A stretch of 64,000 nt of DNA. Source: Halorubrum sp. CSM-61. Its GTDB lineage: Archaea > Halobacteriota > Halobacteria > Halobacteriales > Haloferacaceae. Below the pieces are notes generated by a model that saw nothing but the letters and a program-made list of their open reading frames with translations, was not told the DNA's origin and did no database searches. Positions 1,191 through 54,597 of the stretch are shown one piece after another; position 1 is the stretch's first letter, and the number at the start of each line of letters is the position of its first letter. The stretch spans positions 157,142-221,141 of the forward strand of contig NZ_RJJW01000001.1 of assembly GCF_003781945.1 (NCBI RefSeq), read 5' to 3'. The translations under genes and the position numbers were made by a program.

Positions 1191-1628
1191 GCAGATCGGT
1201 GGCGGCGAGAGAGTATTAAAACGACCGAGAGCGACGGCGACGATCGCTTATAAATGACGTGCGGTGGCGCGTGCCTCCGAGCGGCCGACAGGCCGCAAGG
1301 AGCACGCGCGAGGGAGCCCGCGGCCGCCTGTGGCGGCCGCGGCGAGGCTGGGGAGGCGTGAGGCGCGGTTGCGGCGTTGTGCGGGTGGGATTCAAAGGGG
1401 CAGCCGTGAGGGCGGCGCAGGCGACGCGAGCACCACAACGAGGGAGCAACGCGACCGAGTGAGGAGCGCGGCGAGCGTGCGCCGCCCTCACGGCTGGGGC
1501 TTTGCAGGTCTTCACCGCAATACCGTCGACCACTTATAAACAGCCGCCAGCAACACCACTCGATCGCTTATAAACAACCGATCAACCAATGTGCTATACC
1601 CACTCCCGTCATCAATCAAGAAGCAGGT
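1191..1628 (-). repeat. Structured repeat element, copy A (read on minus strand)
   Basis: About 438 bp, nearly identical in reverse orientation to 42683-43121. Read on the minus strand it has TTTATAAG/TTTATAAA boxes, the conserved AAAGCCCCAGCC start, a 19-bp stem whose arms are CAGCCGTGAGGGCGGCGCA and its complement around a loop of about 58 nt, the block CCCCTTTGAATCCCACCC, the block CCTCACGCCTCCCCAGCCTCG, then two further hairpins. The first of these (about 1316-1343) is CCGCGGCCGCC, loop ACA, GGCGGCCGCGG: a different sequence from copy B but again a perfect stem. Open frames across it are not credible as protein, because what is preserved is base pairing. The flank 1629-1798 holds nothing recognisable. 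Confidence 0.85.
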
Positions 1629-42593: not shown

Positions 42594-42682
42594 GCGGGAG
42601 ACTTCGAGTAGATGAGGGTGTCATAGAACTATTCGGAAGGATTTTATTTCACCCGTGATTAAATGAATCAACCGTTAGAATT
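42594..42682. other. AT-richer spacer before repeat copy B
   Basis: Contains TTCGGAAGGATTTTATTTCA and TTAAATGAATCAACCG, noticeably richer in A and T than its surroundings. No gene, hairpin or known motif seen. 43122-43299, on the other side of the repeat, is likewise empty as far as I can read. Confidence 0.4.
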
Positions 42683-43121
42683 GACCTGCTTTTTGATCGA
42701 TAGCGGGAGTGGGTATAGCACATTGGTTGATCGGTTGTTTATAAGCGATCGAGTGGTGTTGCTGGCGGCTGTTTATAAGTGATCGACGGTATTGCGGTGA
42801 AGACCTGCAAAGCCCCAGCCGTGAGGGCGGCGCACGCTCGCCGCGCTCCTCACTCGGTCGCGTTGCTCCCTCGTTGCGGTGCTCGCGTCGCCTGCGCCGC
42901 CCTCACGGCTGCCCCTTTGAATCCCACCCGCACAACACCGCAACCGCGCCTCACGCCTCCCCAGCCTCGTCGCTGGCGGCGATCGCCGCCAGCGACTCCC
43001 TCGCGCGTGCTCCTCGCGGCCTGTCGGCCGCTCGGAGGCACGCGCCACCGCACGTCATTTATAAGCGATCGTCGCCGTCGCTCTCGGTCGTTTTAATACT
43101 CGCTCGCCGCCACCGATCTGC
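42683..43121 (+). repeat. Structured repeat element, copy B
   Basis: About 439 bp, near-identical to 1191-1628 in opposite orientation. Features in order: TTTATAAG at 42738 and 42772; AAAGCCCCAGCC at 42809, 29 nt after the second box; a 19-bp stem (42816-42834 with 42893-42911); conserved CCCCTTTGAATCCCACCC at 42912; CCTCACGCCTCCCCAGCCTC near 42949; a perfect 26-nt palindrome at 42970-42995; a further stem at about 43003-43044 with loop TGTC; and a third TTTATAAG at 43058. The promoter-to-motif spacing fits transcription starting close to 42802-42809. I recognise no known RNA or IS family. Confidence 0.85.
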
Positions 43122-43299
43122 GATACCCACTCCCGCCATCGCTCGCCGCCGTGTCTGTACTGAGCGAGTCACGGATCAGTCATTGAGGTGTGTAAACTGT
43201 TCTATGGCGCCGTCTCGAATAGGCGGGAACCGCTCCGCGCGCCCCAGTTGGTGAGGAGGGCGCGGAAAGCCTCAAATCCTCCCCCGCCGAAGCCCGCCC

Positions 43300-52343: not shown

Positions 52344-52820
52344 TTACGCTTCGAGGACGTCGTCGTAGTCGCCGGCGTCGACGCGGTCGTCGAACGTCCG
52401 GGCGTCCTCGCCCTCGATGGTGACGCCGAGGGAGGCGCAGGTGCCGCCGACCTCCTTGGCGGCGTTTTTCACGTCGTACGAGAGCAGGTCGGTCGACTTC
52501 TGCTCGGCGACCTTCTTCACCTGTTCGATCGACATGTCCGCGACGAAGTCCTCCTGGGGCTCGCCGGAGCCGGTCTCGAAGCCGGCCTCGTCTTTGATCA
52601 GTTCGGCCGTCGGCGGGACGCCGACCTCGATCGTGAAGGAGCCGTCGTCGTCGTACTCGATGGTGACGGGCACTTCCATGCCGTCGAACGCGGCGGTCTC
52701 CTCGTTGATCTGCGACACGACGTCCTGAACGTCCACCGGCGTCGGTCCGAGCTCGGGACCGAGCGGCGGACCGGGGTTGGCCTGCCCGCCGGGGACGAGC
52801 GCTTCGATAGTTCCAGCCAT
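52344..52820 (-). CDS. rpl11: 50S ribosomal protein L11
   Basis: 158 residues: archaeal L11 with GGQANPGPPLGPELGPTPVD (residues 12-31), IEVGVPPTAELIKDEAGFET and DLLSYDVKNAAKEVGGTCAS. Forms the L7/L12 stalk base with 23S rRNA. Not linked here to rpl1/rpl10. Start ATG at 52820. Confidence 0.97.
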   Translation of the reverse strand: MAGTIEALVPGGQANPGPPLGPELGPTPVDVQDVVSQINEETAAFDGMEVPVTIEYDDDGSFTIEVGVPPTAELIKDEAGFETGSGEPQEDFVADMSIEQVKKVAEQKSTDLLSYDVKNAAKEVGGTCASLGVTIEGEDARTFDDRVDAGDYDDVLEA

Positions 52821-52950: not shown

Positions 52951-53211
52951 TCCATTTATAAGTATCTCTCCGCGACGAACGCCGCCAAAGCCCCAGCCGC
53001 GAGGCGCTTCGCGCCTCTGGAAGCCGGCGGCTTCGCCGCCGGCGACTTCCCCTTTGAGTCCCGCCCCGCGCAGCGCCGCTCCGCACCTCAGGCCTCCCCA
53101 ACCTCGGTCGACGGCGGCCGCGGACCGCAACGCGGCCGCCGCCGACCTCCCTCGCGGTCACCTCGCGCCCTTATCAGGGCGCTCGGAGGCGCGCCACCGG
53201 CCGGATCCGTG
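52951..53211 (+). repeat. Structured repeat element, degenerate copy C
   Basis: A diverged relative of copies A/B: TTTATAAG (52955-52962), 24 nt, AAAGCCCCAGCC (52987), then two compact hairpins with TTC loops (GAGGCGC/GCGCCTC and GCCGGCGGC/GCCGCCGGC) in place of the long 19-bp stem, CCCCTTTGAGTCCC (53049), CTCAGGCCTCCCCAACCTCG (about 53087), a hairpin with arms CGGCGGCCGCG/CGCGGCCGCCG flanked by GTCG/CGAC, and GCGCCCT/AGGGCGC with loop TATC. Order of conserved blocks is the same as in A/B. It ends against the 3' end of the MFS gene. Confidence 0.8.
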
Positions 53212-54597
53212 TTACGACTCCGCGGAGATCGACCCCTCGCCCGGTCCCGTATCTCCCGCGGTGCGCCCGGGGAGGAACGTCCCGGTCTCGCGGCGGACGC
53301 CGAGGAGGAGCACGGCGCCCGCGGCGAGCGGGAGGACCGCGCAGGCGGCGTAGATGGGCGCGAACCCGACCGCCTCGATCAGCGGCAGCGACACCATCGG
53401 ACCGAGGCCGCCGCCCACGTCGCCGAGGACGTTGTTCGTCCCCGAGGCCCGACCCATCCGCTCGTCCGGGGTCAGGTCCGCGAGCAGGGCCATCATCGGA
53501 CCGCTCGTCCCGCCCTGCCCGGCGCCGATGAAGACGCAGGCGAGCCCGAGCGAGACCACCGATCCGGCCCGAGCGAGCAGCAGGAACCCGACGAACGAGA
53601 CCACGAGAAAGGTCAGCAGTATCGGGGTCCGGGAGTCGCGAGTGTCCGATATCCGCCCGCCGACGAACATGAAGAGCGCGGCGGAGAGGACCGTGCCGGC
53701 CATGAACAGCCCGGAAGTTCCCTGCGGGGCGAGGCCCAACAGCGAGATGTCGTTCTCGCCGAGGAACAACACGAGCGTGGAGAACAGCGCGCCGATGTAC
53801 GCGAACATCAGCCCGAAGTTGACCAGCCCGACCGTCACGGCGGGGACCGCGGTGTCGACGTCCCACGGCTTGATCGAGTCGCCGGAGCGGTCGCCCGTGA
53901 CGTGCGTCTCCGGGACGTACCGGTAGGCGACGACGCTGGCGGTGAGCGCGAACGCGGCGGCGACGACGAAGGCGGCAACGTTGCCCGCGAGCGCGGAGAC
54001 GACCCCGCCGAGCACGAGTCCGGCCGGGAACCCCATCGTGATCCCGCCGCGGACGACGCCCATGTTCGTCCCCCGCGAGCCGCTGTCGGAGAGGTCGGCG
54101 GCGATCGTGTAGGCGGTCGCGAACACCGCGGCGGAGCCGAAGCCCCAGAGGACCCGCGCGATCAGGAACCACGTCTCGGGCGCGGCGACGACCGCGATCG
54201 CGGCGAACCATCCCTCTACCCCGACGGCCAACGGGCCGGCCGCGAGCGTCGGTAGCGACGCCGCGAGGGGACGGAGCGACTCGGCGGACGGCATCGCGAG
54301 CGCGACGACGTAGCCGAGGGTGGCGACGCCCTCGACGAACAGTCCGATCACGAACGGCCTGCGCGTCCCGTACCGGTCGACGAGGGCGCCCGCGGGCGCG
54401 TTCGCGACCAGCCGCACCCAGCGGTTCGCGGAGAGGATCACGCCGACCATGAACGCCGAGATGCCGAGCACCGCGCCGAGGTTCGGCAGGATCGGGAAGA
54501 CGACGCCGCCGCCGAAGCCGACGAAGAAGGTGCTGGCGATCACCGCGAGCAGCACGGTCGGCGGGCGGTCGATCCCGAACAGCCCCACGTCAGCCAC
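53212..54597 (-). CDS. MFS transporter
   Basis: 461 residues with about twelve helices. Motif A variant GALVDRYGTRRPFVIG and second-half GGRISDTRDSRTPILLTF; fits the drug/metabolite efflux type. It lies 18 bp downstream of a TetR-family regulator on the same strand with a clear operator, so it is a regulated exporter, substrate unknown. No signal of truncation. Confidence 0.83.
   Translation of the reverse strand: MADVGLFGIDRPPTVLLAVIASTFFVGFGGGVVFPILPNLGAVLGISAFMVGVILSANRWVRLVANAPAGALVDRYGTRRPFVIGLFVEGVATLGYVVALAMPSAESLRPLAASLPTLAAGPLAVGVEGWFAAIAVVAAPETWFLIARVLWGFGSAAVFATAYTIAADLSDSGSRGTNMGVVRGGITMGFPAGLVLGGVVSALAGNVAAFVVAAAFALTASVVAYRYVPETHVTGDRSGDSIKPWDVDTAVPAVTVGLVNFGLMFAYIGALFSTLVLFLGENDISLLGLAPQGTSGLFMAGTVLSAALFMFVGGRISDTRDSRTPILLTFLVVSFVGFLLLARAGSVVSLGLACVFIGAGQGGTSGPMMALLADLTPDERMGRASGTNNVLGDVGGGLGPMVSLPLIEAVGFAPIYAACAVLPLAAGAVLLLGVRRETGTFLPGRTAGDTGPGEGSISAES

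Follow-up and report, generated by a model that had tools for sequence, protein, structure and literature searches.

REPs are single short palindromes of conserved sequence. The REP, BIME and REPIN families (PMC2817692, PMC3116915) are extragenic palindromes that are arranged in mosaics and can number more than 100 in a genome. The repeat described here, of which copy C lies at positions 52951-53211 of the window (the whole stretch of 64,000 nucleotides that was analysed), resembles them in these respects: it has 160 copies in the source genome, and the approximately 93 unique copies examined there were all intergenic. Unlike REPs, however, it is about 230 bp long and contains three freely varying stem regions, and only its linkers are conserved while its palindromes vary. 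The pneumococcal BOX, RUP and SPRITE repeats (PMC3049150) share with it modular boxes, hairpins and over-representation between convergent genes, but they are not known to be related to it in sequence. The haloarchaeal repeat differs from them in its hypervariable yet complementary arms, which are not known to be described for them, and in that it spans an order and is missing from plasmid-like DNA. The term BOX-like is used as an analogy for an element that would work as a modular repeat, with the order of boxes fixed and the modules optional; sequence homology to boxA, boxB or boxC is no part of the claim. As for haloarchaeal MITEs (for example in Haloquadratum, PMC3119063), about one third of the copies in the source genome fall within inverted-repeat units, but the core of the repeat lacks terminal inverted repeats and occurs in several contexts and both orientations. 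Base-pair covariation is shared with the structured RNAs of Rfam, from which the repeat differs by a near absence of wobble intermediates; none of the 4227 Rfam models matched. Although the repeat is present in all Halorubrum-group genomes tested, in up to approximately 160 copies, and reaches other genera, no earlier description was found in the open-licence literature or in Rfam; a report in a subscription journal is possible.

Our preferred reading, held with about even confidence, is that copy C is a member of a dispersed, intergenic, chromosomal multi-hairpin DNA repeat, REP- or BOX-like in kind and with relatives in other genera, the arms of which are rewritten in a coupled manner. Constant unpaired blocks part three hairpin regions, and the blocks are kept while the arms change jointly. 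Modules are swapped, inverted or lost, and the copies are intergenic, few of them between divergent genes and about one third of those in the source genome in MITE-like units.

Copy C is hosted by the spacer between two minus-strand genes, both named from a reading of their translations: rpl11 (52344-52820) and an MFS gene with its stop at 53212. The copy spans from TTTATAAG at 52955 to the end of GCGCCACCG at 53199, and its features were assigned on the plus strand. The TATA-like box TTTATAAG (52955-52962), recognised from the sequence, precedes many copies; it starts 37 nt before AAAGCCCC in 28 of the 52 boxed copies and 32 nt before it in C. Constant block 1, CAAAGCCCCAGCCG (52986-52999), includes AAAGCCCC at 52987-52994. 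Two mini-hairpins that fold as DNA and recur at other loci, GAGGCGC-TTC-GCGCCTC (53001-53017) and GCCGGCGGC-TTC-GCCGCCGGC (53023-53043), make up an alternative stem-1 module. The constant core block CCCCTTTGAGTCCC (53049-53062), which includes the repeated CCCCTTTGARTCCC, is followed by a C-rich linker of the CCGCAC type (53063-53092), also assigned by its sequence, and by the constant block CCTCCCCAACCTCG (53093-53106), which is common to 52/52 genomes of the genus and to other genera. Variable stem 2 (53106-53147), identified by DNA folding and covariation, leads into the constant block CTCCCTCGC (53147-53155), conserved in signature searches. Variable stem 3 (53153-53193), identified by DNA folding and a comparison of pairing, has an outer closing GCG..CGC, and the constant end block GCGCCACCG (53191-53199) lies 12 nt from the MFS stop codon. 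The TATA-like box, the AAAGCCCC start and the internal blocks that the first-pass annotation had claimed for C were thus located at the place it gave.

The same annotation had described the first stem of C as swapped for two short hairpins with TTC loops, and DNA folding agrees: the first-stem region forms two such hairpins (z -3.15), and the hairpins at 53106-53147 and 53153-53193 gave a z of -4.89. In copy B the first stem is a single long stem (z -5.05), with two further hairpins as in C. The cores of copy B (42809-43050, plus strand) and copy A (1262-1503, minus strand), each with a long stem 1, were delimited by block matches and a profile model, and a model from which all window copies had been left out recovered A, B and C at E values of 9e-11, 8e-14 and 5e-7. 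In shuffles, AAAGCCCC was expected 0.54 times against 4 matches found, and CCCCTTTGAGTCCC with up to 2 mismatches 0.33 times against 4 found. These shuffles, together with a genome-wide reversed control (160 versus 0), exclude the chance GC-rich similarity against which the annotation had cautioned. Its description of C as a degenerate third copy was not borne out: the block form that C carries, GAGTCCC, is that of the majority, approximately 160 copies exist in the genome, and the module that makes up the first stem of C recurs elsewhere. The two-mini-hairpin first stem was found again at L084 in the same genome and L189 in another species, and as an add-on at L024, L183 and L261; thus C is an alternative-module copy. 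Stem 1 has a semi-conserved apical part (156/187), which three copies carry in inverted orientation. Across copies the order of the boxes is fixed, and the stem-1 modules are optional, swapped or inverted.

The core 14-mer CCCCTTTGARTCCC has 160 exact matches in the 3.7-Mb source genome, 78 forward and 82 reverse, and its reversed control has 0. It is present in 48 of 52 genomes of the genus and near-absent in the rest of the family, at a level that looked like chance. Named haloarchaeal records bearing the 14-mer are mostly Halorubrum, and the genus of the 52-genome set is probably Halorubrum. The signature CCTCCCCARCCTCG-N13..43-CTCCCTCGC was found in all 52 of these genomes, at between 7 and 131 copies per genome; the control gave 0. 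The stem-2 signature was found in 7 of the 95 genera of the order, with 1-71 copies outside the genus (for example, 71 in G169 and 52 in G309). The loci outside the genus share the second half of the element (the C-rich CCGCAC linker, CCTCCCCAGCCTCG, a stem, CTCCCTCGC, a stem and GCGCGCC) and carry different upstream modules before it. All 11 of the foreign loci tested scored an E value of 1.2e-4 or better against a model of Halorubrum-group copies from outside the window; along 80 kb of C8, a plasmid-like contig, no E value below 0.055 was obtained with the same model. Among the copies listed, none lies on contigs C8 (229 kb) and C15 (83 kb), 313 kb in total, where 13.5 were expected (Poisson 1.4e-6; 5e-5 for C8 alone). 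The first 80 kb of C8 have a G+C content of 56-59% versus 69%, and contain transposases and plasmid matches (L420-L423); this contig is probably a plasmid. In the viral collections searched, viral contigs and phages each had 0 copies. A virus or plasmid origin of the repeat was considered and rejected, with 0 viral contigs, 0 phages and 2 weak plasmid matches.

Pairing was compared within and between copies, whose stems have almost nothing in common in sequence, at orthologous sites too. The arms of the stems pair at 0.87-0.96 within a copy and at 0.37-0.60 across copies, and stems 1 and 2 both pair much better within than between copies. The Watson-Crick fraction was 0.87 within versus 0.60 across copies, which was matched by 0 of 2000 permutations. 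Covariation was counted on classes of stems of equal length. The 33-nt class consisted of 40 stems, and two outliers were excluded from set A2; among 38 distinct stems of equal length, 92.6% of cells were paired, 47 cells had double-sided changes and 8 of the 10 pairs had such a change. In the class from G169, a genome of a different genus, 99.0% of cells were paired and 41 were double-sided; the 5-nt arms came in 24 sequences, whereas the loop that they enclose and the flanks were constant. Neither the percentage paired nor the covariation score was reached in any of 500 shuffles in either class. RNAalifold on a MAFFT alignment of stems of mixed length returned 9 pairs only, because variable arms of mixed length misalign. 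These covariation and pairing counts agree with the earlier claim that the blocks are constrained and that stem complementarity is preserved.

Strong covariation of this kind would also be expected if the copies were multicopy genes for a structured non-coding RNA, in which the TATA-like box drives an RNA of approximately 230 nt from near CAAAGCCCC, the RNA forms three hairpins and covariation reflects selection on that RNA. We consider this explanation unlikely, but the RNA gene family is a live rival to the DNA repeat. In its favour, the TATA-like box stands at a preferred distance, as expected for an RNA gene, and in several copies the leader plus TATA is in tandem repeats; the former counts against our preferred reading, as does an excess of minus-strand wobbles in stem 2 alone (22 vs 4). 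However, G-U intermediates are few: across the two equal-length classes one-sided wobble changes account for 3 cells, against 88 with double-sided changes. Isolated wobble-type mismatches were of plus-strand type in 52 cases and of minus-strand type in 69. The G-U fraction was 2-6% in the folded stems versus 8-9% in a small control set, the RNase P RNA of the source genome and four tRNAs from the window and related loci. In addition, the orientation of the element relative to genes has no preference, a similar TATA box also occurs 3' of the element, and no Rfam family corresponds to it. The scarcity of wobbles, together with the lack of a consistent bias towards either strand or of a preferred orientation, points more towards DNA than RNA. 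Thus, of the selection for structure that had been suggested for C, the kept complementarity stands and selection acting on an RNA is not favoured. On our reading, the pairing pattern favours coupling of the arms at the DNA level, a judgement to be taken with the small size of the G-U control set.

Under our preferred reading the element would act as DNA. Its hairpins may extrude from the single-stranded or supercoiled element, and strand switching inside a hairpin could copy a change in one arm onto the other; alternatively, whole modules could be replaced through gene conversion between copies. The constant blocks might be read by a host chromosomal factor, such as a nucleoid protein, a topoisomerase or a transposase acting in trans. 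More tentatively, and with clearly less than even confidence, we propose an undescribed, order-wide haloarchaeal chromosomal element in which both arms of a hairpin are rewritten together in one DNA-level step, giving strong covariation without RNA selection, and whose blocks mark the sites of a chromosome-organising factor. The repeat is also a clear natural case of near-perfect covariation for which selection on RNA may not be the cause, but instead copying within DNA hairpins or gene conversion; this bears on the reading of covariation as evidence for RNA genes.

By comparing the same locus across species, one can measure directly how fast arms are replaced and in steps of what size. In the rpl11-MFS spacer, copies with other stems occur in G014, G019, G039, G010, G046, G025 and G015, a reduced copy occurs in G028, and the element is missing in some related species. 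Downstream of a gene named msrA from a reading of its sequence, the element occupies one shared position, with aligning flanks, in the source genome, G014, G028, G021 and G019; that locus in G037 is without it. The stems at this locus are very different between species yet complementary, and stem 1 is missing in G019. Modules replaced through conversion from one copy to another would fit these data, and so would repeated insertion at a single site.

A classical family of non-autonomous DNA transposons (MITEs), whose hairpins would be internal and which would be spread by a transposase reading terminal inverted repeats, is an unlikely alternative. Flanking inverted repeats related to GCGGGAGTGGGTAT accompany 31 of the 90 unique copies, and in some of these GGCTCTGTTGAAATCC or GGTGTCATAGAAC forms the outer ends, but terminal inverted repeats were looked for and were absent at C, as in most of the 90. 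Copy B is carried by a MITE-like unit (42617-43214, ends approximate, plus strand) with outer inverted repeats GGTGTCATAGAAC / GTTCTATGGCGCC and inner GCGGGAGTGGGTAT. This unit is absent in two species, G021 and G028, where the spacer is 33-50 bp instead of approximately 668 bp, and in G014 (locus L148) the direct repeat TCAAGTAGA lies outside the unit; both observations speak for the transposon alternative. However, the core is inverted inside the unit in G014, and in G019 (locus L141) the outer unit at the copy B site holds unrelated DNA instead of the core, so that the core behaves as cargo, or else as a module in its own right. Nor were copies found on C8 or in the viral collections searched. 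No clean empty-site junction for core-only copies was found at the C or L030 loci.

The genomic context was compared with background spacers from the window and related genomes, delimited with a home-made gene caller. Of 88 copies, 41 lie in convergent spacers, compared with 21 convergent spacers among the 290 of the background (p 1e-15); the remaining copies are in divergent (12) and tandem (35) spacers, and those in tandem spacers are oriented 21 versus 14, with no bias. This strong enrichment speaks for an insulator, or a transcription terminator working in both directions, where genes converge. Such a role is very unlikely given the 12 divergent and 35 tandem copies, the failure to see a conserved T-run, and the same enrichment reported for pneumococcal repeats and IS elements, read in PMC3049150 as a mark of parasitic elements. 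Since those elements have it too, the convergent-gene bias alone is no proof of function. At convergent sites the DNA repeat may be tolerated, or it may be useful as a chromosome-structure site. A coding element was considered and rejected: open reading frames cross the repeat, yet no reading frame can persist because stem lengths vary freely.

Several individual loci have unusual arrangements. In the rpl11-MFS spacer of G019 (L104), approximately ten tandem 18-bp units of CGCGGGCTGTGCGGACCT stand in place of the 5' half of the element. In the same spacer of G040 (L114), two inverted leader blocks lie beside an inserted open frame, which by eye has a SnoaL/NTF2-type look. At L111, L022 and L030 the leader, from the TATA-like box to CAAAGCCCCAGCCGCTCG (approximately 50-60 bp), is present in two or three tandem repeats upstream of the core. 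Strings of small hairpins, for example GAGGGACC-TTC-GGTCCCTC, occur inside or beside the stems at L010, L005, L042 and L308. At L183 (G003:C1:29946-30011) stem 2 is an extreme palindrome in which one arm is a run of C and the opposite arm a run of G.
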